This document shows, one piece after another, positions 481 to 23,564 of a DNA stretch of 36,895 nucleotides. Position numbers and translations under genes: made by a program. Within the stretch, counting starts at the first letter, position 1; each line of letters opens with the position of its first letter. Location of the stretch: positions 1 through 36,895 of the forward strand of contig JAURZN010000125.1 of assembly GCA_030653355.1 (NCBI GenBank), read 5' to 3'. This DNA comes from Gallionella sp. Lineage in GTDB: Bacteria; Pseudomonadota; Gammaproteobacteria; Burkholderiales; Gallionellaceae. The notes beneath the pieces are model-generated. The model was given only the letters and a program-made list of their open reading frames with translations, was not told the origin of the DNA and did no database searches.

Positions 481-1641
481 ATGATTTTAGTAACGGGCAG
501 TGCAGGTTTTATCGGGTCGAATTTCGTTCTGGACTGGTGCGCGCAGCACGATGAAGCAGTTGTCAGCTTGGACAAGCTGACCTACGCGGGCAATCTGGAA
601 AGCCTCGCTACGCTGAAGAATAATCCGCGCCATATCTTCGTGCAGGGCGACATCGGCGATGCGGAGCTGGTGGGCAAGCTGCTGGCAGAGCATCGACCGC
701 GTGCGGTGGTCAATTTTGCGGCGGAAAGCCATGTGGATCGCTCCATTCACGGCCCCGAAGACTTTATCCAGACCAATATCGTCGGCACCTTCCATCTACT
801 GGAGGCGGTACGCGCCTACTGGCAGAAGCTCCCCTCCCCCGTGAGCGGGGGAGGGGTTGGGGGAGAGGGCGCTACCAAAACCGACTTCCGCTTTCTGCAT
901 GTTTCTACCGATGAAGTGTATGGCTCGCTCGCAAAGGATGAACCTGCCTTTACGGAAACGCACCGTTACGAGCCTAACAGTCCGTATTCGGCCAGTAAGG
1001 CGGCCAGCGATCATCTGGTGCGCGCCTATCATCACACCTATGGCTTGCCGGTACTCACTACCAACTGTTCCAACAACTACGGCCCCTATCACTTTCCCGA
1101 AAAACTCATCCCGTTGCTGATCGTCAACGCTTTGGCGGGCAAGGTGTTGCCAGTCTATGGCGATGGCCAGCAAATCCGCGACTGGCTGTACGTGAAGGAT
1201 CATTGCAGCGCAATCCGCTGTGTGCTGGAAAAAGGCAAGTTGGGCGAGGTTTACAATGTCGGCGGCTGGAATGAAAAAGCCAATCTCGATATCGTCCATA
1301 CCGTCTGCGACCTGTTGGATGAGCTGCGTCCCATGAAACTGGTAAGTAGTGAGTGGTCAGTGGCAAGTGGAGAGACTCACCACTCACCACTGACCACTGA
1401 CCACTCACGATCTGCCACTTACCGCTCTTTAATCACTTTCGTCACCGACCGCCCCGGTCATGATCGCCGTTATGCTATCGACGCACGCAAGATAGAACGC
1501 GAACTGGGCTGGAAACCGGCGGAAACCTTCGAGACCGGCATCCGCAAGACGGTGCAGTGGTATCTGGACAATCAGGACTGGGTGAATAACGTGTTGTCGG
1601 GCGATTACCGAAACTGGGTTGAGAAGCAATATGGGAAGTAG
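481..1641 (+). CDS. rfbB: dTDP-glucose 4,6-dehydratase (RmlB/RfbB) with two in-frame insertions
   Basis: Converts dTDP-glucose to dTDP-4-keto-6-deoxyglucose, the branch point for dTDP-rhamnose and for dTDP-Fuc4NAc. This is an extended SDR protein: NAD-binding [11 protein letters not shown] at residues 5-15, STDEVYGSL with the catalytic Asp/Glu, [10 protein letters not shown] with the YxxxK pair, and [15 protein letters not shown]. Its 386 residues are about 30 more than usual. The excess is two stretches foreign to the family: residues ~117-130 (Pro/Gly-rich, from a GC-rich palindrome) and ~291-312 (Ser/Thr/His-rich, from a heptamer array). Both fall between conserved blocks, just before [11 protein letters not shown] and before [14 protein letters not shown], so the enzyme could still fold. 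First gene of the rfbBDAC group; ATG start at 481. Confidence 0.95.
829..870. repeat. GC-rich palindromic element inserted in frame in rfbB
   Basis: About 42 bp with a perfect 10-bp stem (CCCCTCCCCC at 831-840, GGGGGAGGGG at 847-856) and a GTGAGC loop, followed by a G-rich tail. It is a multiple of three and adds about 14 residues ([14 protein letters not shown]) at a loop where RmlB homologues have none. Its reverse-strand translation ([12 protein letters not shown]) resembles a peptide often produced by dispersed palindromic repeats in proteobacterial genomes. Confidence 0.75.
1349..1408. repeat. Heptanucleotide array with inverted arms, inserted in frame in rfbB
   Basis: The left arm GTGAGTGGTCAGTGG (1349-1363) is perfectly complementary to the right arm CCACTGACCACTCAC (1394-1408). 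The right arm consists of 7-bp units: CACTCAC, CACTGAC, CACTGAC, CACTCAC (1381-1408). The segment is translated in the rfbB frame as a Ser/Thr/His-rich loop absent from normal RmlB. The same unit family appears at 2634-2754 and 3115-3163. Confidence 0.8.
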
Positions 1642-2754: not shown

Positions 2755-3111
2755 ATGGGTAGTAAGCCGCACGAACAATTGGAGGCGTGGAGAATTTCCA
2801 TGCAGTTGGTGAAAGCCGTATATCAATTGACGGCTGATTTTCCGGCTGAAAAGCGTTTCGGATTGGCGCAACAAATGAGGCGGGCGGCAGTGTCCGTGCC
2901 AAGTAATATTGCCGAGGGTGCCGGACGGAACGGTGCAAAGGAATTTTTGAATTTTATGGGTATCGCGCGTGGATCATTGGCAGAATTGGAAACACAGCTA
3001 CAACTAGCGGTCATGCTGGACTTTATTACTCCTGACTACGTTGCTTTTGAATTAACAGAACGCACCGGAAAGTTACTGACCGGCCTACACAAAAAATTGA
3101 GCACAACATGA
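2755..3111 (+). CDS. Four-helix-bundle protein of the 23S rRNA IVS (S23) family
   Basis: A 118-residue protein with the family signature: [17 protein letters not shown], then [21 protein letters not shown], then [19 protein letters not shown]. Four amphipathic helices are expected. The family is named after ORFs in 23S rRNA intervening sequences, but many copies sit elsewhere, often in surface-polysaccharide loci. The biochemical role is not established. The gene is bounded by heptamer repeat arrays in opposite orientations (2634-2754 and 3115-3163), and its TGA overlaps the rfbA ATG, so the two are probably translationally coupled. It looks like an insertion into the rfb operon. Start ATG 2755 is the only sensible one. 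Confidence 0.88.
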
Positions 3112-4046
3112 ACCCACTCACCACTCACCACTCACCACTTCCCACTTCCCACTCACCACTGACCAGAAAGGGCATCATTCTCGCCGGCGGTTCCGGTACG
3201 CGTCTGCACCCGGTCACGCTGGCGGTTTCCAAACAGTTGTTGCCGGTGTATGACAAGCCGATGATCTACTATCCGCTGTCCACGCTGATGCTGGCCGGGA
3301 TACGCGACATTCTGATCATATCCACCCCGCAGGACACGCCGCGTTTTGAGCAATTGCTGGGCGACGGCAGCGCGTGGGGATTGAATCTGCAATATGCCGT
3401 ACAGGAATCTCCGGACGGACTGGCGCAGGCCTTTATCATCGGCCGCGAATTCATCGGTAAGGATCCTTCTGCGCTGGTGCTGGGCGACAATATTTATTAT
3501 GGGCATTCCTTTCAGGCACAACTCAACAAGGCCGCCGTGCGGACCGACGGTGCGACCGTGTTTGCCTACCATGTGCGCGACCCGGAACGCTATGGCGTAG
3601 TGGAATTTGACAGGTCGGGTCGTGCCGTCTCGCTGGAGGAGAAACCTGTAAAACCCAAATCCAGCTACGCCGTCACCGGGCTGTATTTTTACGATAACGA
3701 CGTGCTGGATATCGCGGCTGACCTCAAGCCTTCGCCGCGCGGCGAGCTGGAAATCACCGACATCAACCGTATTTATTTGGAGCAAAATCGCTTGTCGGTG
3801 GAAATTATGGGGCGCGGCTTTGCCTGGCTGGATACCGGTACGCACGAATCGCTGCTTGAGGCAAGCCAGTTCATCCAGACCGTCGAGCGTCGCCAGGGGC
3901 TGAAAATCGCCTGCCCTGAAGAGATTGCTTTCAACAAGGGTTTTATTAATGCGGAACAACTGGAAAAACTGGCCATGCCGTTAATCAAGGGAGGTTACGG
4001 TGCGTATCTGATGCAAGTTCTCCGAGAAGGAAAAATGTTCGCATGA
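3108..4046 (+). CDS. rfbA: Glucose-1-phosphate thymidylyltransferase (RmlA) with repeat-derived N-terminus
   Basis: Makes dTDP-glucose from dTTP and glucose-1-phosphate, the entry step to dTDP-rhamnose and dTDP-Fuc4NAc. Motifs: [15 protein letters not shown] (nucleotide loop), [31 protein letters not shown] with the metal-binding Asp, EEKP, and [17 protein letters not shown]. Family members begin at MKGIILAGG or similar. Here the only usable start is ATG 3108, about 19 codons earlier, and those codons (Thr/His/Ser/Pro) are heptamer repeat 3115-3163. The usual initiator seems to have been displaced by the array. The start overlaps the stop of the preceding gene (ATGA). The rest is of normal length. 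Confidence 0.95.
3115..3163 (+). repeat. Seven-unit heptanucleotide array at the start of rfbA
   Basis: Seven perfect-length units in a row: CACTCAC three times, CACTTCC twice, CACTCAC, CACTGAC. Translated as the N-terminal leader of RfbA. Because 7 is not a multiple of 3, gain or loss of one unit would put the start codon out of frame with the enzyme; only changes of three units keep it. Confidence 0.9.
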
Positions 4047-4588
4047 AAGCGACTCCAACGGACATATCCGGTTTGCTGATTATTGAACCCAAAGTATTTA
4101 GTGATGACAGGGGGTTCTTTTATGAAAGCTTTAATCGCCTGAAATTTGTTGAATTAGCAGGGCGTGAAGTTGATTTTGTGCAGGATAATCATTCACGCTC
4201 CGTGCAGCACGCGTTACATGGCTTACACTATCAAATTAAACATCCGCAAGCCAAACTGGTGCGTGTGGTGCAGGGAGCGGTGCTGGATGTGGCGGTGGAT
4301 ATCCGTAAGAGCTCGCCTACCTTCGGCCAGCATGTCGCAGTGGAATTGTCCGCCGAAAACAAACGCATGTTCTGGATGCCGGAAGGGTTTGCACACGGCT
4401 TCGTGGTACTGTCCGGTACTGCGGATTTCCTCTACAAGACCACGGATTACTGGTTCCCCGAACACGAGCGTTGTTTGCGCTGGAACGATCCGGCATTGGC
4501 GATAGACTGGCAGCTGAAAGAAACGCCCGTGCTTTCTGCCAAGGATCAACTAGGCAAAATTCTTACCGAAGCGGAGTTGTTTGATTGA
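4043..4588 (+). CDS. rfbC: dTDP-4-dehydrorhamnose 3,5-epimerase (RmlC)
   Basis: Epimerises dTDP-4-keto-6-deoxyglucose at C3 and C5 to the L-rhamno form. A small cupin protein, 181 residues, normal length. Motifs: [19 protein letters not shown] followed by [21 protein letters not shown] with the catalytic His, [13 protein letters not shown], and [14 protein letters not shown]. Start ATG 4043 overlaps the rfbA stop by 4 bp. Its presence with rfbD means dTDP-rhamnose itself is made, in addition to any use of the shared intermediate by WecE. Confidence 0.96.
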
Positions 4589-4626
4589 ACCAAATGAGTA
4601 CAGGAAATCCAGCTCGTGAACCACGG

Positions 4627-5733
4627 ATGAAAATCCTCGTCGTAAGGCTGTCGTCACTGGGCGATATTCTGCATTTGTTCCCGGCCATCAGCGATCTGCG
4701 CCGCCATTTTCCCGATGCGGAAATTCACTGGCTGGTGGAACCTGCCTTTGCTGAAATGGTGGGTTGGCATTCGGCCGTCAGCAAGGTGATACCGGTGCCG
4801 CTGCGCAGCCACAAAAAAAACTGGTGGAGGCTGCCGCGTTTGCTGCGTGGTTTGAAGCAACAACTCAGAGCGGAGCATTACGACATTGTGCTGGATGCGC
4901 AGGGTTTGCTTAAGAGTGCGCTGCTGGCGCGTCTTGCGGGGGTGGATATATATGGTTTCCATGCCGATAGCGCGCGCGAACCCCTGGCGGCAAGGTTTTA
5001 TCTGAAGACCGCCAGCGTAGCCCGCGGCTTGCATGTTATCGAGAAGAATCGCCAGCTTGTGGCCAAACTGTTTGCCGCAGATGTGTCGCAAGCTGCTGAT
5101 TATGGTTTGTATGCTTTTCATCAGCGGCAATTGGCAGAAAATCTGCCTAAGGCAATCGCAGGTTTGGTCGGTCAGCGCAGCATTGTGCTGTTGCACGGCA
5201 CAACCTGGAACAGCAAATACTGGCCGGAGTCGTCGTGGATGGAGCTGGTAGGTTTGCTGGCCGAACAGGGCTGGTTGTGTCTGTTGCCCTGGGGCAATGC
5301 GCAGGAACACCAGCGCGCTCAGCGTTTGCAGCTTGCCGGAGGCGCGCAGGCACGTGTATTACCCAGGCTGACATTGACTGAATTGATGAGTGTGCTGCTG
5401 CACGCTCATGCCTTCGTCAGCGTTGAATCAGGCATAGGCCATCTGGCTAGCGTACTGGATATCCCGGGCATCATGCTGCATGGCCCGACGGATCCGGGCT
5501 ACAGCGGCATTCCGGGCAAAGCATGTCAGCACATCAGCAGTGGCCTGGATTGTTCACCCTGTTTTAAACGCGACTGTCCCAAACTGGCATCCAAATTGGA
5601 TATGCCGCCCTGTCAGCGGGAAATCAGCGCGCAGCGTGTGCTGCAGCTATGCCTGCAATTGCCGGATAACACCTGCTGGGATGCGAACATCGTAAAGGGT
5701 GGCGCGCAAACTGATAAAATTGACATCGTTTAA
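4627..5733 (+). CDS. waaC: Lipopolysaccharide heptosyltransferase I (GT9)
   Basis: Transfers the first L,D-heptose from ADP-heptose to Kdo of the inner core, at the cytoplasmic face. GT9 features: N-terminal MKILVVRLSSLGDILHLFP, IHWLVEPAFAEMV, DIVLDAQGLLKSALLARL, and C-terminal LLHGTTWNSKYWP (nucleotide-binding region), FVSVESGIGHLASVLDIPGIMLHGPTDP. These fit WaaC better than WaaF. The start is set at ATG 4627 because WaaC proteins begin MKILVV or MRVLIV; TTG 4585 and ATG 4594 are alternatives adding 11-14 residues. Follows rfbC directly. The C-terminal Cys-rich DCSPCFKRDCP stretch is common in the family. Confidence 0.88.
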   Translation: MKILVVRLSSLGDILHLFPAISDLRRHFPDAEIHWLVEPAFAEMVGWHSAVSKVIPVPLRSHKKNWWRLPRLLRGLKQQLRAEHYDIVLDAQGLLKSALLARLAGVDIYGFHADSAREPLAARFYLKTASVARGLHVIEKNRQLVAKLFAADVSQAADYGLYAFHQRQLAENLPKAIAGLVGQRSIVLLHGTTWNSKYWPESSWMELVGLLAEQGWLCLLPWGNAQEHQRAQRLQLAGGAQARVLPRLTLTELMSVLLHAHAFVSVESGIGHLASVLDIPGIMLHGPTDPGYSGIPGKACQHISSGLDCSPCFKRDCPKLASKLDMPPCQREISAQRVLQLCLQLPDNTCWDANIVKGGAQTDKIDIV

Positions 5734-13994: not shown

Positions 13995-14942
13995 ATGAGC
14001 CATCCTGCACCCCTGCTTTCCGTCGTCATTCCGGTATATAAGGCCGAGCACTGCCTCGATGAATTATATCGACGTCTTAAAACCGCGCTGGAGAGCATCT
14101 CGCCGGAGTTTGAAATCATACTGGTCGAAGACTGTGGCGGCGACGGGTCGTGGCAGGCGATTACACGGCTGGCCGCCGCCGATGCGCGCGTGCGCGGTAT
14201 CCAGTTCAGCCGTAATTTCGGCCAGCACTACGGTATCACTGCCGGGCTGGATCACTGTCGTGGCGACTGGGTGGTGGTGATGGATTGCGATTTGCAGGAC
14301 AGGCCGGAAGAGATACCGCGCCTGTATGCACGGGCTCAGCAGGGCTTCGATGTTGTGCTGGCGCGGCGCGGCAAGCGCCAGGATCCGCTGCTCAAACGCT
14401 TTACTTCGTGGCTGTTCTATCGACTGTTCAGCTATCTTGCCGATATCGACTACGACGGGCAGACGGGCAATTTCCGCATCATGTCGCGCAAGGTCGTGGT
14501 CAGTTTTTTGCGCATGCGCGAACAATTGCGCTTTTTCGGCGGTCTGGTGCAGTGGCTGGGTTTTCCTACCGACAGCATAGAGGTGGCGCACGCCGAACGT
14601 TTCGAGGGTAACTCCACATATACTTTTTCCAAACTGTGGAAGCTCGCCGCCGAAACCATCATCGCGTATTCCGACAAACCGCTACGGCTGGCGGTGCGAT
14701 TCGGCTTCATGATGGCCTTCTTCTCCTTTTGCTATGGCATGTACATACTGGGACATGCCTTGTTATACGGATCACCGATTCCAGGCTGGAACAGTCTGAT
14801 TGTCTCGTTGTATTTCATTGGCGGCATCATCATATCCATACTCGGTATCATCGGCATTTATCTGGGCAAGACGTTCGATGAAAGCAAGAAGCGGCCGTTG
14901 TATATCGTCAGGCGGGCTACCTTTGATGAACACGTTGATTAA
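13995..14942 (+). CDS. ArnC/GtrB-like polyprenyl-phosphate glycosyltransferase
   Basis: 315 residues. The N-terminal GT2 domain has LSVVIPVYKAEHCLDELYRRL, IILVEDCGGDGSW, FSRNFGQHYGITAGL and VVMDCDLQDRPEEIP (DxD-type). Then comes GNFRIMSRKVVVSFLRMRE and FEGNSTYTFSKLWKLA, followed by two C-terminal membrane helices (~residues 233-255 and 268-292). This is the architecture of ArnC, GtrB and dolichol-P-mannose synthase-type enzymes, which load one sugar on undecaprenyl phosphate at the cytoplasmic face. The next three partners (WecD-like, ArnE-like, and WecE plus ArnT-like on the other strand) point to Fuc4NAc as the sugar; that part is inference. Its end overlaps the next start by 17 bp. Confidence 0.87.
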   Translation: MSHPAPLLSVVIPVYKAEHCLDELYRRLKTALESISPEFEIILVEDCGGDGSWQAITRLAAADARVRGIQFSRNFGQHYGITAGLDHCRGDWVVVMDCDLQDRPEEIPRLYARAQQGFDVVLARRGKRQDPLLKRFTSWLFYRLFSYLADIDYDGQTGNFRIMSRKVVVSFLRMREQLRFFGGLVQWLGFPTDSIEVAHAERFEGNSTYTFSKLWKLAAETIIAYSDKPLRLAVRFGFMMAFFSFCYGMYILGHALLYGSPIPGWNSLIVSLYFIGGIIISILGIIGIYLGKTFDESKKRPLYIVRRATFDEHVD

Positions 14943-15624
14943 GCCTACGCCGTGGGATGCGGCGGCGTTCGGTATCAACACCTGGGAGCTGCTCGACTAT
15001 TCCGAGGCCGCGTTGCAACAGGCGGCGCAGACGGCAGGCCATCACACTCTCAAGGTCGATCCTCTGGCGGACAAGCGTCTGCTGCACGAATACGGTTTTT
15101 ATTACTGCGACACGCTGGTGGAACCGCATTGTGATGCGGCTCGCTTACGCAAGCGGCAGCATGCAGATGCAACCATTTCCAGGGTGGTTGATGTTGAACA
15201 GGCAGTGTCGATTTGCCATGGTGCGTTTGCGCACGGTCGTTTTCACCGGGATTTCAACTTGCCACGGGCAGGCGCCGACCTGCGCTATGACAATTGGCTG
15301 AGGCAATTGCTCGCAGCCGGGCAGGTTTACGGCTTGTATTGGCAGGGTGAATTGGCGGGGTTCATCGCTTGCAGCGGCAATAATCTGTTGCTGCATGCGC
15401 TGGCTGAACAGCATCGCGGCCGTGGCCGGGCAAAATACTGGTGGAGTGCAGTGTGCGGTGAATTGCTGGCGCTGGGGCATGAGGAAGTGAAAAGTTCGGT
15501 TTCCGCCAGCAATCTCGCCGTGCTCAATCTGTATGCTTCGCTGGGTTTTAGTTTCAAACATCCGCAGGATATATACCATCGCATGACGCAAACTATAGAT
15601 GAAACAAACGGTCGGCCCGCATGA
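14926..15624 (+). CDS. WecD-like dTDP-4-amino-4,6-dideoxygalactose N-acetyltransferase
   Basis: 232-residue GNAT protein. The N-terminus (TPWDAAAFGINTWEL) matches the WecD-type opening where a W-(D/E)-xx-FG motif precedes the GNAT fold. The region GAFAHGRFHRDFNLP and the acetyl-CoA loop AEQHRGRGRAKYWWSAV (R/Q-x-x-G-x-G/A pattern) follow, then SVSASNLAVLNLYASLGF near the C-terminus. WecD acetylates TDP-Fuc4N to TDP-Fuc4NAc. A WecE gene lies 0.4 kb downstream on the opposite strand, which supports the pairing. The start is ATG 14926, inside the end of the ArnC-like gene; an earlier start at 14800 would overlap it far more. Overlaps the next gene by 4 bp. Confidence 0.78.
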   Translation: MNTLIKPTPWDAAAFGINTWELLDYSEAALQQAAQTAGHHTLKVDPLADKRLLHEYGFYYCDTLVEPHCDAARLRKRQHADATISRVVDVEQAVSICHGAFAHGRFHRDFNLPRAGADLRYDNWLRQLLAAGQVYGLYWQGELAGFIACSGNNLLLHALAEQHRGRGRAKYWWSAVCGELLALGHEEVKSSVSASNLAVLNLYASLGFSFKHPQDIYHRMTQTIDETNGRPA

Positions 15625-15983
15625 GCTATTTTTATATCTTCATGACCATTTTGCTGACCGTGTACGGTCAGATCGCAATTAAATGGCAGGTACTTAAAGT
15701 CGGCGCCTTGCCCGAAGGGACGGCAGAAAAGGTCAGCTTTTTGCTGCATCTGTTGCTCAATCCCTGGATTGTGAGTGCGCTCGCCGCCGCCTTCCTCGCC
15801 TCGTTCTTCTGGATGGCAGCGATGACCCGGCTGCAGCTCAGCCATGCCTATCCCTTCATGGGCCTGACCTTCGTGCTGGTGCTGCTGGCCAGTGGCTTGT
15901 TCTTTCAGGAACCCGTCACCCTGCTCAAGGTCGTGGGCGTCGCGCTGATAGTGCTTGGCCTAGTGGTGGCGAGCCAGGGTTGA
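15621..15983 (+). CDS. Small four-TM transporter, ArnE/EmrE (SMR/EamA) type
   Basis: 120 residues with four predicted membrane helices. The first helix holds TILLTVYGQIAIKWQV, the usual SMR-like opening with the small-residue/Gln pattern seen in ArnE/ArnF. The last helix ends VVGVALIVLGLVVASQG. In the L-Ara4N pathway ArnE/ArnF flip the undecaprenyl-linked sugar to the periplasm. Position directly after the ArnC-like and WecD-like genes suggests flipping of an undecaprenyl-phosphate amino sugar here. Whether it works alone or needs a second subunit encoded elsewhere is unknown. ATG 15621 overlaps the previous stop. Convergent with wecE after only 20 bp. Confidence 0.8.
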   Translation: MSYFYIFMTILLTVYGQIAIKWQVLKVGALPEGTAEKVSFLLHLLLNPWIVSALAAAFLASFFWMAAMTRLQLSHAYPFMGLTFVLVLLASGLFFQEPVTLLKVVGVALIVLGLVVASQG

Positions 15984-16003
15984 TCCTGCCGGAGCGGGAC
16001 GCG

Positions 16004-17134
16004 TCAGCTGATGAAGAATTCGCGGATAGCGGCGGTGATGCGCGCGATGTCCTCGGCGTTCATCTCATAAAACAGCGGCAGTCGCAGCAGACGTTCGCTC
16101 AGGTCGTCCGTTACCTGCATGCAGCTGCCTTTGCGTCCATATTGGCGTCCGGCCGGCGAGGAATGCAGCGGCACATAATGAAATACCGGATTGATTCCCT
16201 GCGCCTTGAGGTGCACGATTAATTTGCTGCGCGTAGTCAGGTTGTCGAGCAGGACGTAGAACAGATGACCGTTGCTGTCGTCATCGAAGTCCGCGATGCG
16301 TAACTTGCCGGATTGTTGCAACGGAGCGAGTTGCATCGCGTAGGCGCTACAGATGCTGCGCCGCTTGGCGATGATCTCGTCGGCGCGCTCCAGTTGCGCG
16401 TAGAGGAAGGCACTGACCAGTTCGCTGGGCAGATAGGATGAACCGATATCCATCCAGGTGTACTTGTCCACTTCTCCCCTGAAGAACTGGCTGCGGTTGG
16501 TGCCCTTCTCGCGGATCACCTCGGCGCGTTCGGCAAATCGCGCGTCATTTACCAGCAGTGCGCCCCCCTCACCACTGATGATATTTTTGGTTTCGTGGAA
16601 ACTCAGGCAGCCGAAATGTCCGATGCTGCCCAGTGCGCGGCCTTTATAGGTAGAAAGCAAGGCCTGCGCGGCATCTTCCACCACCAGCAGCTTGTGTTTT
16701 TCAGCAATCGCCATGATGCGATCCATCTCGCACGGCACGCCCGCGTAATGTACGGGTACGATGACCCGTGTCCTGGGGGTTATGGCGGCTTCAATCAGTT
16801 CCTCGTCGAGGTTCAGCGTGTCCGGGCGAATATCCACAAATACCGGCACGGCGCCGCGCAGCACGAAGGCATTGGCGGTGGAGACAAAGGTGTAGGAGGG
16901 CAGAATGACTTCGTCGCCGGGCTGGATGTCGCACAGTATTGCGGCCATTTCCAGCGCGCCGGTGCAGGAGTGGGTGAGCAAAGCCTTGCGGCAGCACAGT
17001 TTTTCCTCAAACCAGCGATGGCAGTGCTTGGTGTAGGCGCCATCGCCGGAGAGATGGCCTTGTGCAACGGCATCGGCGATCAGCGAGAGTTCGCGACCGA
17101 TGATGAAAGGTTTGTTGAACGGAATGGGTTTCAT
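16004..17134 (-). CDS. wecE: dTDP-4-amino-4,6-dideoxygalactose transaminase (WecE/RffA)
   Basis: PLP-dependent aminotransferase that converts dTDP-4-keto-6-deoxyglucose, the product of RfbB, to dTDP-Fuc4N using glutamate. Very close to enterobacterial WecE: HSCTGALEMAAILCDIQPGD, PSYTFVSTANAFVLRGA, IVPVHYAGVPCEMD, VVEDAAQALLSTYKGRALG and FHETKNIISGEGGALL, with the PLP Lys in the HETK motif near residue 183. Start ATG 17134 (MKPIPFNKP) is chosen by analogy with the WecE start; GTG 17143 is an alternative. Last gene of the minus-strand operon that begins with the MBOAT gene. With the WecD-like enzyme it completes the dTDP-Fuc4NAc route, although other enterobacterial-common-antigen transferases (WecG, WecF) are not in the window. 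Confidence 0.93.
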   Translation of the reverse strand: MKPIPFNKPFIIGRELSLIADAVAQGHLSGDGAYTKHCHRWFEEKLCCRKALLTHSCTGALEMAAILCDIQPGDEVILPSYTFVSTANAFVLRGAVPVFVDIRPDTLNLDEELIEAAITPRTRVIVPVHYAGVPCEMDRIMAIAEKHKLLVVEDAAQALLSTYKGRALGSIGHFGCLSFHETKNIISGEGGALLVNDARFAERAEVIREKGTNRSQFFRGEVDKYTWMDIGSSYLPSELVSAFLYAQLERADEIIAKRRSICSAYAMQLAPLQQSGKLRIADFDDDSNGHLFYVLLDNLTTRSKLIVHLKAQGINPVFHYVPLHSSPAGRQYGRKGSCMQVTDDLSERLLRLPLFYEMNAEDIARITAAIREFFIS

Positions 17135-17159
17135 AGGGCGCACGCAGGGAACAATGAAC

Positions 17160-18557
17160 TCATTTTATCGTTAATCCGGTCTGGCAGGCAGTCCCGCGAC
17201 ACAGCAAATAAAGCTTGTCTCCACCGAGCTGGTACGCTTTGATGTTTCTTTCTGTTTCGGGGGCAGCCGTCATGGAAATGATAAATCCGGATGCCAGATC
17301 GGGCGGCGGAAATTGCAGCGCCTGAGCGGGATAGCGTTGCTGGTTGATGTAGGCCGCCACGTTCAGACCATTACTAGTCACGTCGTTAATATAGAGGGGC
17401 TGCTTCCCGGTGAGGGTGATGATGTCGGTGGCGGTCATTGCGTAGTTTTCGCCACGGTATTGATGCTGGTAATAGGGGAAAACCACCAGGCCCAGAATAA
17501 AGTTGAACGCGATGGCGGCGGTCAGCCAGCGGCGGGTGATGACTAAGGCCGGATTGCCCGCGCGCCAGATCAGTCGTGCGGCAAGCAATGCGAATAGCGG
17601 ATAGATCGGCATTAAATAACGTATCCCGCTGTGCGGTGCGAGCCAGTAAGGCAGAAAATTCAGCACCGCGATCAGCAGTGCGTTGCGAAAGTGCAGAGGC
17701 TGAACTTCGTCCTGTGTGATCCGTCCGCGCAGTGCGAAATAAGCGACCAGTATGCCGGCTGGCAGTAAGCCCGACCAGACTTCCAGCGGGTATTGCAACA
17801 GTTTGCCGAGGTAGTCACCGATGTTGGGCAGGGCAAGTTTGGTGAGGATTTCATCGAACATGCGCCCGCTTTGTCCGTGCCCTGCGGGGATAATGGCGAA
17901 CCAGATCAACGGTGCAGCCAGCATGACGGCATGCGCGGCCAGCGACACGGGGCTGAGCAGAACCTTGCGATAGGCGGCGACGCGCGCGAGTACCAGCAGG
18001 CTGATACCGTAAAATACATAGGCGGTGAATGCCTTGCTTAGAAATGCACAGCTCAGTGCGATAGCCGCGAGCCATAGCAGATTGCGGCGTTGTTCTGTGC
18101 AAGCGACCCATAGCGTGGCGATGGACGTGAAGATGAATAGTGCAAACAACGGATCCACGTAGGCCAGCCAGCCGTGGTACATCAGCACATCGTCGAAAGT
18201 CAGATAAATCAGCGCGGCAAAGACAGCAAAGCTGCGATCAAGAAATAAGCGCAAGACCAGCCAGTACAACACGGCGGCCGTGGCCAGCGTTGCGCTGAGG
18301 GTCAGCCCGCGTGCCACCTCCAATACATGAGGCCAGCCGAACAGATAGGCACAGGCGATGATCAGCCAGTTGAACAGCGGATTGTGCTGAACATCGCCGC
18401 CATACAGATACTGCTTGAGCCATACGCCACGCTGCCACATTTCCATGGAGGTGATCGGGAAGATGGCCTCTTCGCCGACGTAATAATGGTTGAATGCGGT
18501 GAGCATACTCAACGCGGCTGCAAGGAACAGCAGGGAAAAGGAGCGGGTTGGGGTCAT
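17160..18557 (-). CDS. ArnT-like GT-C glycosyltransferase (GT39/PMT superfamily)
   Basis: 465-residue integral membrane protein, roughly ten to twelve helices, with a soluble C-terminal tail. The first periplasmic loop has YYVGEEAIFPITSMEM, where the acidic pair (E29-E30) takes the place of the catalytic Asp/Glu of ArnT/PMT enzymes. The loop continues with VQHNPLFNWLIIACAYLFGWPHVLEVAR, like the KPPLxYW region of ArnT. Such enzymes take a sugar from an undecaprenyl-phosphate carrier in the periplasm and put it on lipid A, LPS or protein. Neighbours wecE (17 bp or more downstream) and the convergent ArnC/ArnE-like genes suggest an Und-P-Fuc4NAc donor; this is inference. ATG 18557 overlaps the preceding stop by 4 bp. 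Confidence 0.8.
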   Translation of the reverse strand: MTPTRSFSLLFLAAALSMLTAFNHYYVGEEAIFPITSMEMWQRGVWLKQYLYGGDVQHNPLFNWLIIACAYLFGWPHVLEVARGLTLSATLATAAVLYWLVLRLFLDRSFAVFAALIYLTFDDVLMYHGWLAYVDPLFALFIFTSIATLWVACTEQRRNLLWLAAIALSCAFLSKAFTAYVFYGISLLVLARVAAYRKVLLSPVSLAAHAVMLAAPLIWFAIIPAGHGQSGRMFDEILTKLALPNIGDYLGKLLQYPLEVWSGLLPAGILVAYFALRGRITQDEVQPLHFRNALLIAVLNFLPYWLAPHSGIRYLMPIYPLFALLAARLIWRAGNPALVITRRWLTAAIAFNFILGLVVFPYYQHQYRGENYAMTATDIITLTGKQPLYINDVTSNGLNVAAYINQQRYPAQALQFPPPDLASGFIISMTAAPETERNIKAYQLGGDKLYLLCRGTACQTGLTIK

Positions 18558-19756
18558 GGTTTCAGGCCTGCCGATGGTAGCGATAGGGTGCCATCCGGGC
18601 GCAATGCATCGCGCCAGAACGACTGAAAGATTTTGTTGTAACAGCTTGATACGGCATGGTGCGGGTCAAGAAATTCATCGGGCCGGCAAGCAAAGCGTTC
18701 TGATTGTCCTGCGTCCAGCATGGTCAGCTGGTTTTCTTTGGCCCAGCCAGCCAGTGTTTGTTTGGTTCTTTGCAACGCAGGCATAAGTTGCGGGTGGCGG
18801 AGAAATTCGACCTCCATTCCCGGCAACAGAGGCGGTAAAAATAAAATCAGCCCTCCGCCGTTCTGTTTTGCCTGCTTGCCCAGTTCGGCGAGGCGTTGCA
18901 AAAAGATCGGGTTGGGTGAGCCGTCAGCCGATAGCAGGCTATGGCGGTATTGAGAATGGGATGAGGTCGAGGCAAGAATCAGTGAAAGCGGATTGCCAAC
19001 CCGGGACGAATTTGCGAAAGTGGCGCTGCCGTCGTGGCGGAACCCCGTGCAGGTGCCGCGATGTATGGTGTCGAAATCTTTGCCGGGCGTGCCGTCGGCG
19101 CAACGGTAATCATTGCTTGCGTCTTGCAGGAAATAGCCGTTGAAAGCAGCGGTTTTGTCATCGGCGCGACGAATGTTATTTAATATTTCAAACAGGCTGC
19201 TGATGCGCGGATAGGACAGTGCATCGCGTATTCTTTCCAGCAGCGGGACCGATTTTATTTGCGCCTGTGTTGCCTGCATGGCGGTTGTTGCGGAAAGATC
19301 GGCATCGGGCGGAGTGCCCTGTTGATAGATGAATCCCAATGACCAATCCAGTGGAATGACCAGCCATTTTACGTTTGCGGAATGACGCTGAATATACTCC
19401 GCCTCACCGATGACCGAGCTGAGCGCGTGTCCGGTTTGTGCATAGTTGTACAGATGCAGCGCGTCTGGAAAGGCCTGCTGCGCGATGCCCAGAGCGGTGG
19501 AAGAGCCGAATACGACGGTGTTAATTTCCGGCAGGCGATCAAGCAGGCGCAGTGTCTTGAACAGATGGGTGTCGCTCAGGGTCGGTGCGTAAGTGATACC
19601 CTGCGTGCGCTGCTGCCACTGGCTGGCAAGCAGCACTTTCTGATTGTTGCCCAGGGTGTCGTTGAGCAGAATCATATTCAGGACAAGAACAGGCAGCAGC
19701 GTCGCGCAAAAGCTGATTATCAGTATCCGGAAATAATGTTTATGCCGTATGTTCAT
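18554..19756 (-). CDS. Membrane-anchored SGNH/DltD-AlgX-like protein, MBOAT partner
   Basis: About 400 residues with one N-terminal membrane helix (~residues 9-31) and a periplasmic domain. NTVVFGSSTALGIAQ (~80-94) looks like the SGNH block with nucleophile Ser, and DEFLDPHHAVSSCYN near the C-terminus gives the Asp-x-x-His pair, so a complete hydrolase-type site is plausible. Proteins of this type (AlgJ/AlgX, DltD, PatB) work with an MBOAT membrane acyltransferase, here the gene immediately upstream (2-bp gap). They hand the acyl group to a surface polymer. The start is set at ATG 19756 directly after the MBOAT stop; the longer frame would run into that gene. I cannot name the acceptor. Confidence 0.72.
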   Translation of the reverse strand: MNIRHKHYFRILIISFCATLLPVLVLNMILLNDTLGNNQKVLLASQWQQRTQGITYAPTLSDTHLFKTLRLLDRLPEINTVVFGSSTALGIAQQAFPDALHLYNYAQTGHALSSVIGEAEYIQRHSANVKWLVIPLDWSLGFIYQQGTPPDADLSATTAMQATQAQIKSVPLLERIRDALSYPRISSLFEILNNIRRADDKTAAFNGYFLQDASNDYRCADGTPGKDFDTIHRGTCTGFRHDGSATFANSSRVGNPLSLILASTSSHSQYRHSLLSADGSPNPIFLQRLAELGKQAKQNGGGLILFLPPLLPGMEVEFLRHPQLMPALQRTKQTLAGWAKENQLTMLDAGQSERFACRPDEFLDPHHAVSSCYNKIFQSFWRDALRPDGTLSLPSAGLKP

Positions 19757-19758
19757 AT

Positions 19759-21360
19759 TCAGAATTGAAAGTACAGAAACGCCGACTGCTTGCTCAGGTT
19801 GATGATCGCGATAAAGCCGAGCAGCCATACGATGAGCGCGGCAGGTGCCGAAGGTCGCCACGACAATCGTGTGCGGCTTTCAGGCATATCCAGCGCGGGT
19901 TTATAAGCTGCCATGATCTGCTGGGTGTTGGGTGCGAACCAGACGATGAGCAAGGAAATCCATATCCAGTTGATGGCACCACCCATGATTAAATCATTGG
20001 TTGCGCCGAAAGAGACGCCCTGCGCGGATAGCCATAGACCGAACGCTCCCCATTTGGGCAGCCAGGCATCCGGCAGGACAAAACCGTTCAGGCCGGACAT
20101 GGCACTGAGCATGGCGGTGGCGGAACTCAGGTTATCGGCGCGGAACACGACCCATGCCGATACTACAGCAAGGAAGGTGAGCAGCACGGCGGCCGCTCTT
20201 GCCGGTTGGGATGGCAGTGCTTGGGTATTCTGCCCCAGCGCGCGACGGAGTGCATGCCAGCCGTGATTGATGATCAGATACAGGCCGTGCAGCCCTCCCC
20301 ACAGCACAAAGGTCCAGCCTGCGCCGTGCCACAGACCGCCCAGCAGCATGGTAATCATCAGATTCAGGTAGCGCTGTGCCGCGCCTTTGCGGTTGCCGCC
20401 CAGCGGGATGTACAGGTAGTCGCGCAGGAAACGCGACTGGGTCATATGCCAGTTGCGCCAGATTTCGATGATATTCACCGCTTTGTACGGAGAATGAAAA
20501 TTAAGCGGCAGGGTTACACCAAACATGCGCGACAGGCCGATGGCCATATCCGAATAGCCGGAGAAATCGAAATACAGTTGCAGCGTGTAGCACAATGCGC
20601 CACCCCAGGCATCAATGAAACTGAGTTCAACACCGGCTGCCGAGGCATCGAAAACCGGGCCGACATAAACGGCCAGTCCATCCGCCAGAATGACCTTTTT
20701 GAATAGCCCGATGAGAAAAATGGTCATGCCCACCGACATGTTTTCGTAGTTGAAACGATAGGTTGAGGCGAGCGCGAACTGCGGCATCATCTCCTTGTGA
20801 TGCAGTACCGGTCCGGCGATCAGGTGCGGGAAATAGGTCACGAACAGCAGGTAATGCACGAAATTGTATTCCTTCACCTTGCCCTGATAGGTGTCCACCA
20901 GATAAGCGATCTGGGTGAATGTAAAGAAGGAGATGCCCAGCGGCAGGATGATATGCGCCAGATTCCAGTCCGTACCCAGCAGCGGATTCAGGTTGCCGAC
21001 AAAGAAATTGGCATACTTGTAATAGCCCAGCAAAACCAGATTGGCAGCAATCGCCACGATCAGCAGACGTTGAGGACTAAGTGCTGAGGACTGAGTGTCG
21101 GGCGCTGATGCCTCAGTCCTCAGTCCTCGTTGCTCAGCCCTGACTCTGGCTTTTGCGATCCACATCCCGAACGCGTAGTTGCATACGATGGACATGAGCA
21201 GCAGCCCGACGTAGGCCGGATTCCAGTAGCCGTAGAAAAATAGTGAGGCAAATGCCAGCCAGGCCGCCGCGTAGCTGTGGTTTATCCGCCCGAGCTGAAA
21301 GAAACCCAACAGCACCACAGGCAGGTAAAGAAAAATGAAGCCGTAGGAATTAAATAACAT
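19759..21360 (-). CDS. MBOAT-family O-acyltransferase (AlgI-like) with in-frame insertion
   Basis: 533-residue multi-pass protein that would pass acyl (usually acetyl) groups across the inner membrane. Typical motifs: MLFNSYGFIFLYLPVVL start, FGYWNPAYVGLLL-like second helix, LGYYKYANFF, LPLGISFFTFTQIAYLVD, YFPHLIAGPVLHHKEMMPQF, DFSGYSDMAIGLSRMFG, and GGLWHGAGWTFVLWGGLHG with the two conserved His. Residues ~75-98 (Arg/Ser/Thr-rich, between IAKARVRAE and LLIVAIAANL) are not family-like and derive from a heptamer palindrome at 21071-21145. Core motifs are intact. First gene of the minus-strand operon; divergent from apaH. Confidence 0.92.
   Translation of the reverse strand: MLFNSYGFIFLYLPVVLLGFFQLGRINHSYAAAWLAFASLFFYGYWNPAYVGLLLMSIVCNYAFGMWIAKARVRAEQRGLRTEASAPDTQSSALSPQRLLIVAIAANLVLLGYYKYANFFVGNLNPLLGTDWNLAHIILPLGISFFTFTQIAYLVDTYQGKVKEYNFVHYLLFVTYFPHLIAGPVLHHKEMMPQFALASTYRFNYENMSVGMTIFLIGLFKKVILADGLAVYVGPVFDASAAGVELSFIDAWGGALCYTLQLYFDFSGYSDMAIGLSRMFGVTLPLNFHSPYKAVNIIEIWRNWHMTQSRFLRDYLYIPLGGNRKGAAQRYLNLMITMLLGGLWHGAGWTFVLWGGLHGLYLIINHGWHALRRALGQNTQALPSQPARAAAVLLTFLAVVSAWVVFRADNLSSATAMLSAMSGLNGFVLPDAWLPKWGAFGLWLSAQGVSFGATNDLIMGGAINWIWISLLIVWFAPNTQQIMAAYKPALDMPESRTRLSWRPSAPAALIVWLLGFIAIINLSKQSAFLYFQF
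21071..21145. repeat. TGAGGAC-type heptamer palindrome in frame in the MBOAT gene
   Basis: Tandem 7-bp units (TGAGGAC and variants) on one side and their complement on the other: TGAGGACTGAG at 21085-21095 pairs perfectly with CTCAGTCCTCA at 21112-21122. The design (heptamer arms facing each other) is the same as at 1349-1408, with a different unit. It adds about 25 residues to the acyltransferase. Boundaries are approximate. Confidence 0.75.
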
Positions 21361-21477: not shown

Positions 21478-22302
21478 ATGGCGATTTATGCAGTGGGAGA
21501 CATCCAGGGCTGTCACACGGAATTGGTACAGTTGCTGGAAAAAATACGTTTTGATCCGGACTTGGACAAACTGTGGCTGGTTGGTGACCTGGTCAATCGC
21601 GGCCCTGATTCCTTGCAGGTGTTGCGCCTGGTCAAGTCGCTGGGCGACTCCGCAATTACCGTGCTCGGCAATCACGACCTGCATTTGCTCGCGGTCGCGG
21701 CGGGAACGTCCAGGTTGTATCGTGGCGATACATTGGATGAAATATTGCGCGCACCGGATCGCGAGGAATTGCTGACCTGGCTGCGCAACCAGCGTTTGCT
21801 GCATGCAGAAGGCGACTTTGTGCTGGTACATGCCGGGTTGTTGCCGGGCTGGTCGGTAGCGCAGGCCGTCAGTCTGGCGGGTGAGGTCGAAGCGGCGCTG
21901 CGTGGCCATGACTATGTGGACTTTCTCGCGCACATGTACGGCAACAAACCCGATGCCTGGGACGACGGGTTAACGAACTATAAGCGTTTGCGGGTGATTA
22001 CCAATGCGTTGACAAGAATGCGCATCTGCACCGATAGCGGTGAGATGGAGTTTGATTTCAAGGCGGAGAAGCACAAGATTCCGCAAGGTTATTATCCCTG
22101 GTTCAACATTCCCGAACGTGCCAGTCGTGAGTCAACCGTGATATTCGGCCACTGGTCGGCGTTGGGTTTGATGATCAAGCCCAATGCTATCGCACTGGAT
22201 ACCGGCTGTTTGTGGGGCGGGCCGATGACAGCGATCCGTCTGCAAGACCGCGAGGTGATACAGGTGGCTTGTGCGAATCCCTCCGTGGCCAAGCACTGGT
22301 GA
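21478..22302 (+). CDS. apaH: Symmetrical bis(5'-nucleosyl)-tetraphosphatase ApaH
   Basis: Hydrolyses Ap4A to two ADP. Calcineurin-like phosphoesterase with metal-binding motifs IYAVGDIQGCHTEL, LVGDLVNRGPDSLQVL and VLGNHDLHLLAVA, then HAGLLPGWSV and FGHWSALG with a C-terminal His. 274 residues, family-typical. The start is ATG 21478 (MAIYAVGD); TTG 21463 would add five residues with no family support. Stop overlaps the waaA start by 4 bp, so the two are likely co-transcribed. Divergent from the MBOAT operon; the shared upstream region is 21361-21477. Confidence 0.95.
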   Translation: MAIYAVGDIQGCHTELVQLLEKIRFDPDLDKLWLVGDLVNRGPDSLQVLRLVKSLGDSAITVLGNHDLHLLAVAAGTSRLYRGDTLDEILRAPDREELLTWLRNQRLLHAEGDFVLVHAGLLPGWSVAQAVSLAGEVEAALRGHDYVDFLAHMYGNKPDAWDDGLTNYKRLRVITNALTRMRICTDSGEMEFDFKAEKHKIPQGYYPWFNIPERASRESTVIFGHWSALGLMIKPNAIALDTGCLWGGPMTAIRLQDREVIQVACANPSVAKHW

Positions 22303-23564
22303 GATTTCTTTATACATTCTTGCTGTGGTTGCTGCTGCCTTTCATTTTCGTGCGTCTGGCGCTGCGCGCGCGCAGACAGCCTGAATACTGGCAGCATCTG
22401 GGCGAGCGTTTTGGTTTTTACCATCCCACTGATAGGGGGATGGCTGGGGAGGGAGTGATCTGGCTGCATGCGGTTTCGGTCGGCGAGACGCGCGCGAGCG
22501 CGAGTCTGGTCGCCAGATTAGGTGCCGCGTATCCGGACCATCAAATCCTGCTGACCCACACCACCCCGACCGGGCGCGCCACCAGCGCGCAGTTGTATGG
22601 TGATAGCGTGCGGCGGGTGTATTTGCCCTACGATTATCCGTTCGCGGTGCAGCGCTTCCTGCGCCACTTCAGGCCCGCAGTCGGTATCCTCATGGAAACC
22701 GAAATCTGGTTCAACCTGATTCACGAAGGGCGTGCGGCGGACGTTCCCATGTTGCTGCTCAACGCGCGCCTGTCGGAAAAATCGGCCAAGGGCTATACGC
22801 GGTTCGCCAGCCTGACCCGCAACGCACTGCAACAACTCGATGCTATCGCCGCGCAGACCCCGGATGACGCAGCGCGTCTAGGCCAGCTTGGTGCCGAAAA
22901 AGTATCCGTGATGGGCAATCTCAAATTCGATATCGAACCGCCGCCTGCGATGCGGGAACTGGGCAAGGCGCTGCGCCGGCAGTTCGGCGCGGACAGAAAA
23001 ATCCTGCTGACCGCCAGCACCCGCGAGGGCGAAGAAGCACTATTGCTGGATGCGTTTATGGCGCAGAGTGCCATGAAAGATGTTCTGCTGGTCATTGTGC
23101 CGCGCCATCCGCAACGCTTTGACGAAATCGCGGAGCTGCTTGCCAAACGCGGTTTGCGCTATCAGCGCCGCAGCGAGAACCGGGAAGTCGGGGCGGATGT
23201 TCAGGTGGTGCTGGGCGATAGCATGGGCGAGATGTTCGCCTATTACGTCGCCGCTGACATCGCCTGCATCGGCGGCAGCCTGCTGCCGTTCGGCGGCCAG
23301 AACCTGATCGAAGCCTGTGCGGTCGGCACACCGGTGCTGATCGGGCCGCACACGTTTAATTTCACCGAGGCAACCAGGCTTGCGGTCGAGGCCGGTGCCG
23401 TGTTGCGGGTGAAGGACGCGAGTGAATTGTTCCGAACTGCGTACGCGTTGCTAAATGACGCCAGCGCGCTGGATGAGATGAGTAAGCAGGGCGTGCGCTT
23501 CGTCGCCGCTCATCGGGGTGCGACGGACAAGGCGATGGGAGTGATTCAGGCTGTGATCGGCTGA
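22299..23564 (+). CDS. waaA: 3-deoxy-D-manno-octulosonic acid (Kdo) transferase
   Basis: Adds Kdo to lipid IVA at the inner membrane, the step before heptosyltransferase I. GT30 features: one N-terminal membrane anchor (FLYTFLLWLLLPFIFVRLAL), GVIWLHAVSVGETRASASL with the catalytic Glu, LLTHTTPTGR, VYLPYDYPFAVQRFL, GILMETEIWFNLI, TASTREGEEALLLDAF, IVPRHPQRF, GDSMGEMFAYY and GGSLLPFGGQNLIEACAVGTPVL. GTG start 22299 overlaps the apaH TGA (GTGA); upstream in-frame residues are antisense to nothing but lie inside apaH and are not family-like. 421 residues, normal. Shows that the locus covers inner-core as well as O-antigen functions. Confidence 0.95.
   Translation: MRFLYTFLLWLLLPFIFVRLALRARRQPEYWQHLGERFGFYHPTDRGMAGEGVIWLHAVSVGETRASASLVARLGAAYPDHQILLTHTTPTGRATSAQLYGDSVRRVYLPYDYPFAVQRFLRHFRPAVGILMETEIWFNLIHEGRAADVPMLLLNARLSEKSAKGYTRFASLTRNALQQLDAIAAQTPDDAARLGQLGAEKVSVMGNLKFDIEPPPAMRELGKALRRQFGADRKILLTASTREGEEALLLDAFMAQSAMKDVLLVIVPRHPQRFDEIAELLAKRGLRYQRRSENREVGADVQVVLGDSMGEMFAYYVAADIACIGGSLLPFGGQNLIEACAVGTPVLIGPHTFNFTEATRLAVEAGAVLRVKDASELFRTAYALLNDASALDEMSKQGVRFVAAHRGATDKAMGVIQAVIG

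Follow-up and report, generated by a model that had tools for sequence, protein, structure and literature searches.

A candidate three-component glycosylation module, predicted to supply its own Fuc4NAc, in a Gallionella genome

Which sugar does a bacterium load onto its lipid carrier when genes for making one amino sugar lie among genes that resemble the machinery for handling another, and onto what is that sugar finally transferred? This question is raised by a stretch of 36,895 nucleotides from Gallionella sp. (GenBank assembly GCA_030653355.1, contig JAURZN010000125.1; the whole stretch is called the window here). The source genome is 2.6 Mb, 89% complete and in 224 contigs, and the named relatives of the window contig are Gallionella and other Gallionellaceae. 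From the sequence, the original prediction had read five open reading frames (ORFs) as an Arn-like pathway carrying 4-acetamido-4,6-dideoxygalactose (Fuc4NAc) on undecaprenyl phosphate (Und-P). All five ORFs are real and correctly placed, and our computations support the overall reading; the donor, the flipping step and the acceptor we infer. The set itself was drawn too small, as the MBOAT and SGNH-like genes upstream of the GT-C gene were overlooked, so that it consists of seven genes. We regard it as fairly probable that these encode a three-component extracytoplasmic glycosylation system of the Gtr/Arn type with its own sugar supply, charged with dTDP-Fuc4NAc. The seven genes are:

13995..14942, plus strand: ArnC/GtrB/PgfS-like GT2 polyprenyl-phosphate sugar transferase, proposed Und-P-Fuc4NAc synthase (Pfam, NCBIfam and PDB matches, tree)
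14926..15624, plus strand: GNAT N-acetyltransferase with a WecD fold, proposed to act on dTDP-linked 4-amino-4,6-dideoxygalactose (dTDP-Fuc4N) (Pfam, structure model)
15621..15983, plus strand: ArnE/F-like small membrane protein, proposed Und-P-sugar flippase (family scores)
16004..17143, minus strand: WecE, the dTDP-4-keto-6-deoxyglucose 4-transaminase giving dTDP-Fuc4N (NCBIfam equivalog, PDB match)
17160..18557, minus strand: ArnT-fold GT-C glycosyltransferase, proposed periplasmic transferase (Pfam PMT, structure model)
18554..19861, minus strand: SGNH-like/DUF1574-like protein, start uncertain, proposed MBOAT partner in periplasmic O-acylation (position, DUF1574 below cut-off)
19759..21360, minus strand: MBOAT O-acyltransferase, DltB/AlgI-like (Pfam MBOAT 118.3 bits; DltB model 175.1 bits, cut-off 375)

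On the plus strand the ArnC-like and acetyltransferase genes overlap by 17 nt, and the acetyltransferase and ArnE/F-like genes by 4 nt. The minus-strand run goes from MBOAT through the SGNH-like and GT-C genes to wecE, which comes last, with small gaps or overlaps; the two strands converge, and the stops of the arnE-like gene and wecE are 20 nt apart.

By its scores the identification of the transaminase as WecE is secure: both curated WecE cut-offs are passed (equivalog PRK11706 in NCBIfam, 603.1 bits against 375; TIGR02379, 572.9 bits against 434.85), the models for DesI, ArnB and PseC are outscored by far, and the dTDP-4-amino-4,6-dideoxygalactose transaminase of PDB entry 4piw is matched with 479.9 bits. 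The linked transaminase is above the WecE cut-offs in all seven relatives scanned, which come from Proteobacteria, Cyanobacteria and Bacillota and include Anabaena, Dolichospermum and Caenibacillus. Pfam places the acetyltransferase among the GNAT proteins (Acetyltransf_1, 27.9 bits, cut-off 20.7). The structure model of the enzyme, with a predicted local distance difference test score (pLDDT) of 90.9, has WecD as best PDB match (2fs5, Foldseek rank 1). Specifically, it superimposes on the WecD crystal structure with Z 19.3 and a root-mean-square deviation (rmsd) of 2.8 over 206 residues of a 222-residue chain, while the next structure reaches Z 15.5, i.e. 3.8 lower. From this fold and the linkage to wecE we infer that it is a dTDP-Fuc4N N-acetyltransferase, which makes Fuc4NAc the probable donor sugar.

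The ArnC-like protein has a GT2 domain (Pfam, 97.9 bits) and matches the PgfS and ArnC models and the Sll0501 structures over nearly its full length, which bears out its description as an ArnC/GtrB-like transferase. The best NCBIfam model is PgfS (223.9 bits, cut-off 500); the ArnC model gives 181.5 bits, and since this is far under its cut-off of 529 the protein is not ArnC itself. PDB entry 5ekp is matched with 211.6 bits and the ArnC structures with 165-169 bits. From these comparisons, the protein is a polyprenyl-phosphate transferase of the GT2 type, complete in length and closer to PgfS and Sll0501 than it is to ArnC. By score the small membrane protein resembles ArnE and ArnF, yet it passes neither cut-off (ArnF 51.3 bits, cut-off 99; ArnE 36.8 bits, cut-off 92), and in many relatives its place is held by a protein of the GtrA family (PF04138), so that the label ArnE-like stands only in part. 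EamA is just above its cut-off (28.4 bits, cut-off 28.2), and the ArnE-type profile finds only weak SMR matches in the PDB (E 0.06-0.07). The GT-C protein passes Pfam PMT (33.5 bits, cut-off 22.7) and matches no NCBIfam model at E up to 0.001. Sequence searches gave no proof of kinship with ArnT. The structure model (pLDDT 79.5) does have ArnT as best PDB match (5f15/5ezm), with Z 27.8 and rmsd 3.5 over 421 residues against ArnT with bound undecaprenyl phosphate; the next family, ALG12, has Z 22.4, which is 5.4 lower. The original claim of an ArnT-like GT-C enzyme thus holds at the level of the modelled fold. Note that a common fold alone is no proof of function, either for this model or for that of the acetyltransferase.

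Do these genes belong together? We counted them in 158 genomes of the family, taking the ArnC-like clade at E up to 1e-120 and wecE at E up to 1e-100. The ArnC-like clade is present in 32 genomes, the acetyltransferase in 28 and wecE in 38; ArnC-like and acetyltransferase occur together in 27, ArnC-like and wecE in 30, acetyltransferase and wecE in 27, and all three in 26. A weak acetyltransferase match in G122, the 29th, was left out here and, as L062, from the loci described below, and a partial match at a contig end in G009 was retained. The three genes co-occur beyond chance (Fisher p 3e-24, 1e-22 and 2e-20 for the three pairs in the order given, values that are indicative only, the genomes being relatives). 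The ArnC-like gene adjoins the acetyltransferase gene in all 27 family loci, two of which are truncated at the edge of a contig; the fetched stretch includes wecE in 23 of the 27 and the GT-C family in 16. A flippase-type gene is found in 26, and the contig of the 27th ends at that point. Behind the acetyltransferase gene, nine family loci have an ArnE-type gene in the slot and 12 a GtrA-type gene (three of these 12 calls were scanned with Pfam, and that of L048 was made through L087), and in five loci a divergent GtrA-type gene lies upstream (two of the five scanned with Pfam).

To look beyond the family, genomes with names were scanned for loci similar to the GNAT enzyme. Of 142 confirmed candidates the best 80 were kept (the named loci); 22 of them are family contigs. 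The ArnC-like gene is adjacent to the acetyltransferase gene in 75. For wecE, 68 loci have it within 7 kb, two have it in part and ten lack it, eight of the ten with less than 1.5 kb of sequence downstream of the acetyltransferase. A flippase-type gene is present in 62 (ArnE-type 41, GtrA-type 21). When the count is limited to loci with 3.5 kb or more of downstream sequence, 66 in number, the ArnC-like gene is found in 62, wecE in 64, a flippase-type gene in 52 and all three in 51; among the 58 loci outside the family contigs the numbers are 53 for the ArnC-like gene, 49 for wecE and 40 for the flippase type. The mboat gene is present in 25 of the 80 and the SGNH-like gene in 21. In the betaproteobacterial loci L107 and L112 the whole set stands on one strand in the order msbA, ArnC-like, acetyltransferase, ArnE-type, wecE, mboat, sgnh, gtC, and in L107 a methyltransferase gene precedes wecE. 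The substrate genes can also be close: in L137 and L141 rmlA borders directly on the ArnC-like gene, and in L088 the distance from that gene to rmlA and rmlB is about 3.4 kb. Among the isolates with such loci are Methylobacillus flagellatus, Pseudomethylobacillus aquaticus, Methylovulum psychrotolerans, Methylomicrobium, Anabaena, Dolichospermum and Caenibacillus; many other locus names are labels of metagenome-assembled genomes, some of them apparently wrong (e.g. Bordetella parapertussis, Chitinophaga). The co-occurrence that the original prediction called for is thus found widely, both in family genomes and in the named loci.

The components are swapped while the set persists. In a quick tree of 58 ArnC-like rows, the flippase class changes six times, two of the changes being forced by well supported branches. 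Alternation of ArnE/F-type and GtrA-type proteins is what would be expected of a single functional slot. Not all of the 41 ArnE-type calls are strong: among five proteins scanned with Pfam, those of the window, L137 and L107 barely pass EamA, that of L071 is a sub-threshold SMR match and that of L094 belongs to no family. Both trees were restricted to ORFs of 280 to 480 residues. The second quick tree (81 rows, with 72 of 76 linked copies) puts 71 of the 72 acetyltransferase-linked ArnC-like proteins, together with those of L152 and L154, in one supported group with long branches. Outside this group are the protein of Caenibacillus, the ArnC of the genome itself, three paralogues and those copies that are linked to WbqC or sulfotransferase genes. 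In L098 of Methylovulum psychrotolerans the acetyltransferase gene is followed, where others have ArnE or GtrA, by a gene for an unrelated LPG_synthase_TM protein (PF03706, 10769-11896), possibly a third flippase class.

The acetyltransferase seems to be exchanged as well. Eleven family genomes have wecE and no GNAT gene, and six of their stretches hold an ArnC-like gene. Near this gene four of the six (L146, L152, L154 and L157) have a hexapeptide acetyltransferase-type gene, identified with Pfam in L146, L152 and L157 and in L154 through 82% identity to the protein of L152. A methyltransferase gene accompanies it in L152 and L154 and a WbqC gene in L146 and L157. Two of the six show no acetyltransferase, because the corresponding place is taken by a methyltransferase in L155 and by a sulfotransferase in L156. 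As a separate observation, the WbqC-family gene (PF08889) of L146 and L157 stands beside the hexapeptide sugar acetyltransferase, a flippase-type gene and wecE; these two loci possibly represent another acyl variant of the carrier pathway, one that has an ArnC-like branch of its own.

Taken together, the predicted route would be as follows. RmlA and RmlB, whose families are clear and whose reactions are established knowledge, would make dTDP-4-keto-6-deoxyglucose, which WecE, also clear by family, would aminate to dTDP-Fuc4N. The GNAT enzyme, going by its WecD fold and its linkage to wecE, would acetylate this to dTDP-Fuc4NAc. The ArnC/GtrB-like enzyme would then load Fuc4NAc onto undecaprenyl phosphate, the ArnE/F-like protein (GtrA in relatives) would take Und-P-Fuc4NAc to the periplasmic face, and the ArnT-fold enzyme would move the sugar to a surface glycan, for which the neighbouring genes suggest the lipid A-core or an O-unit of lipopolysaccharide (LPS). 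O-acylation of the product or the acceptor is the probable task of the MBOAT and SGNH-like pair, and in several relatives a methyltransferase gene is also within the set. The steps from acetylation to transfer are thus put forward from fold, linkage and swaps. The name SGNH-like for the protein at 18554-19861 is provisional (DUF1574 22.5 bits, under the cut-off of 29.1); its gene sits between mboat and gtC in the window and in relatives. Beside the module, at 10739-12781 on the minus strand, lies a gene for an AT3 acyltransferase fused to an SGNH domain, which is also seen in relatives such as L063, L089 and L092.

A wider proposal can be made only tentatively: that this is a widespread modular pathway of several phyla, in which Und-P-carried Fuc4NAc is added to the lipid A-core right after MsbA flips it. 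It would then be a second Arn-like modification of LPS, in which strains vary their surface by exchanging the acyl group (acetyl, from GNAT or hexapeptide enzymes), the methylation and O-acylation, the class of flippase and the GT-C enzyme.

Several results weigh against the Und-P-Fuc4NAc pathway as we read it, and they are given in what follows together with the explanations that they favour. Some concern the sampling: the named loci were selected by similarity to the GNAT enzyme, and of 369 genomes drawn class-wide only two reach E 1e-30 or better for this enzyme, one of which is the genome of the window itself, so that the trait is patchy and rare in the class. Others concern gaps in the set. 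No flippase candidate was found in 18 of the 80 named loci (three with less than 1.5 kb downstream; L098 is among the 18), and no ArnC-like gene in five of the 11 family stretches that have wecE and no GNAT gene, several of which are short contigs. The window's GT-C family is found in only 35 of the 80 named loci, and its profile matches no PDB sequence at E up to 0.1; near many of the other loci lie large membrane proteins, some of which are MsbA and the rest not identified as GT-C.

The acceptor is less sure than the donor sugar, being taken from neighbouring genes. The same pathway could deliver its sugar to protein (pilin or S-layer) or to exopolysaccharide instead of LPS. The GT-C model also resembles protein mannosyltransferases (Pmt4, Z 21.6), and 43 of the 80 named loci have neither an adjacent msbA nor a waa gene. 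On the other hand, the fold is matched best by ArnT. As acceptor LPS is the likeliest, because msbA adjoins 25 of the loci and waa genes are near 13. The msbA gene is directly upstream and none of the 25 is a family contig (the match in L085 is weak; one linked msbA that was checked has 791.8 bits, cut-off 602); 12 of the 13 waa loci are Gallionellaceae contigs. We consider an acceptor other than LPS unlikely, though worth keeping in mind.

The carrier could also bear a close relative of Fuc4NAc, such as 4-acetamido-4,6-dideoxyglucose (Qui4NAc) or an otherwise N-acylated, methylated or O-acylated Fuc4N, the pathway being otherwise unchanged. One point in favour of this is the distance of the GNAT enzyme from WecD in sequence: it fails the curated WecD model with 19.6 bits against a cut-off of 219, and its profile matches only other GNAT proteins in the PDB (E 0.02-0.04). 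Because neither phmmer nor the profile search listed WecD, the assignment rests on fold, and the original term WecD-like is right for the fold and not for the sequence. Methyltransferase genes in or beside the set in several loci, and hexapeptide or WbqC genes in place of the GNAT gene in some wecE loci, point in the same direction. These points are opposed by the WecE scores, by a best fold match that is itself a dTDP-Fuc4N acetyltransferase, and by the Pfam scan of the window's own set, in which no ORF is a methyltransferase. A different sugar of this kind appears rather unlikely to us.

A further explanation divides the set into two neighbouring pathways. WecE and the GNAT enzyme would feed a cytoplasmic transferase that builds an O-unit linked to undecaprenyl pyrophosphate (Und-PP), and the ArnC-like protein, flippase and GT-C enzyme would handle another sugar. 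The window does hold GT2, GT4, WecA-like and O-antigen-ligase-like genes. The GNAT gene is found without an ArnC-like gene on the fetched stretch in four of the 80 loci (L097, L102, L121 and L133), so that the enzyme serves other routes too; in L128, which starts at a contig edge, no ArnC-like gene is visible there. In the single-contig genome G011 (locus L162) gtC, sgnh, mboat and the ArnC-like gene stand in a row beside apaH, and neither wecE nor the acetyltransferase was found in that genome; either another sugar is used there or the supply genes are elsewhere. Against such a division, the ArnC-like gene is directly adjacent in 75 of 80 GNAT loci and overlaps in the window, wecE is present in 30 of the 32 family genomes with the ArnC-like clade, and in L164 the gene order is changed (wecE-arnC-wecD) while the set stays. 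Two separate pathways are thus quite improbable. Finally, that the locus is a degenerate one for 4-amino-4-deoxyarabinose (Ara4N, the Arn sugar) or for enterobacterial common antigen (ECA) is hardly credible: single components do score on the ArnC, ArnE/F and WecE models, but the genes are intact and conserved, the window ORFs scanned include no ArnA or ArnD gene, a remnant of ECA is rejected as no WecF was found in the 89% complete genome, and a degenerate Arn locus is rejected in view of an Arn-type operon on another contig.

Around the set are genes for its predicted substrate supply and for LPS. Upstream in the window are rmlB, rmlD, rmlA, rmlC, waaC and WecA-like, PglF-like and O-antigen-ligase-like genes, and downstream are apaH and waaA; the GT2 and GT4 genes come from family scans. 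The presence of RfbA and RfbB (rmlA, rmlB) in the same window, as originally stated, is confirmed above the cut-offs:

481..1641, plus strand: RmlB/RfbB dTDP-glucose 4,6-dehydratase, substrate supply shared with rhamnose (TIGR01181 510.3 bits, cut-off 365.1)
3108..4046, plus strand: RmlA/RfbA glucose-1-phosphate thymidylyltransferase, substrate supply (TIGR01207 525.4 bits, cut-off 360.65)
4585..5733, plus strand: WaaC heptosyltransferase I, LPS context (TIGR02193 293.7 bits, cut-off 185.3)
22212..23564, plus strand: WaaA Kdo (3-deoxy-manno-octulosonic acid) transferase, LPS context (NF004386 587.8 bits, cut-off 524)

Just inside the start of rmlA, at 3114-3165, there are tandem 7-bp repeats (ACTCACC), in frame with an N-terminal extension. 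The same repeat is found inside rmlB at 1375-1427, and three-unit copies give 30 overlapping matches on nine contigs of this genome; the reversed pattern, taken as control, is a rotation of this repeat and so is no measure of chance. The repeat at the rmlA start codon could be a phase switch of dTDP-sugar supply. Between rmlD and rmlA, at 2755-3111, a four-helix-bundle protein of the 23S rRNA intervening-sequence family (PF05635) is encoded. Perfect 6-bp repeats of another kind (ACCCGA, CACCGG) occur within a CheA-like gene at 34852-34960.

How does the module compare with known systems? In the Arn pathway, ArnBCADTEF bring Und-P-Ara4N to lipid A. Common to both are ArnC-like, ArnE/F-like and ArnT-fold proteins and an amino sugar on Und-P; the difference is that the route here is predicted to be dTDP-based and the Arn route is UDP-based. 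The set would have no ArnA or ArnD because acetylation is predicted to replace formylation and deformylation. A separate Arn-type operon is present on contig C47 (locus L145), with ArnD-, ArnA-decarboxylase-, formyltransferase-, ArnC-, ArnF- and ArnT-like genes, the ArnA-like gene thus being split, and a PseC/ArnB-like transaminase gene; only its decarboxylase-type and formyltransferase-type models are above cut-offs, and the ArnT-like gene extends up to the edge of the contig. On the ArnC model the ArnC-like protein of this operon reaches 354 bits and that of the window 181.5 bits, so that the window set forms a second pathway, apart from the first. The C47 operon also contains a gene for an RlmN-like RNA methyltransferase (L145 6093-7208). 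In ECA synthesis WecF adds Fuc4NAc in the cytoplasm to an Und-PP-linked unit. WecE, a WecD-fold acetyltransferase and the predicted nucleotide sugar are the same, whereas Fuc4NAc is proposed here to be on Und-P. The original prediction had named WecF/WecG-type transferases elsewhere as possible users of all the Fuc4NAc; a search for WecF (PF07429) in the 89% complete genome gave no match, with E. coli as the only positive among 14 control genomes, and WecG was not searched for. Streptococcal PgfS and Synechocystis Sll0501 are the closest model and the closest structure for the ArnC-like enzyme, but the protein is below the PgfS cut-off and other partners are expected in both cases.

In the literature searched (open-licence PMC articles, by titles and abstract starts) we found no paper on an Und-P-Fuc4NAc pathway, which is no proof of absence. 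According to the accessible part of a survey of 12,939 genomes, Fuc4NAc occurs only in Gammaproteobacteria (PMC7725333). That range would widen, as WecE and the WecD-fold enzyme are found together in loci that carry beta- or zetaproteobacterial labels and in isolates of Cyanobacteria and Bacillota; the gap in the survey likely arises from an acetyltransferase too divergent for WecD sequence models. The pathway would also bear on the LPS chemistry of iron-oxidising and methylotrophic bacteria, and the co-inherited set offers a testable handle on two unrelated flippase families doing one job.

The description as Arn-like is apt for the ArnC-like, ArnE/F-like and ArnT-fold parts; for the system as a whole, the nearest kind is the three-component Gtr type rather than Arn, because GtrA replaces the ArnE/F-like protein in many relatives. 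The accessible part of one report describes such systems (GtrA-GtrB-Gtr(type) of Shigella and Salmonella, pentofuranose systems of Citrobacter) as handling Glc, Gal and pentofuranoses (PMC11127046). In both cases a polyprenyl-phosphate sugar synthase, a flippase and a GT-C enzyme are encoded together, and by sequence and modelled fold the window appears to have all three: a GT2 synthase, a small flippase and a GT-C-fold transferase. The module differs in that Fuc4NAc is the predicted sugar and that wecE and the gene for the WecD-fold acetyltransferase are inside it. If this is true, an N-acetylated 4-amino-4,6-dideoxy sugar joins those handled by three-component systems.

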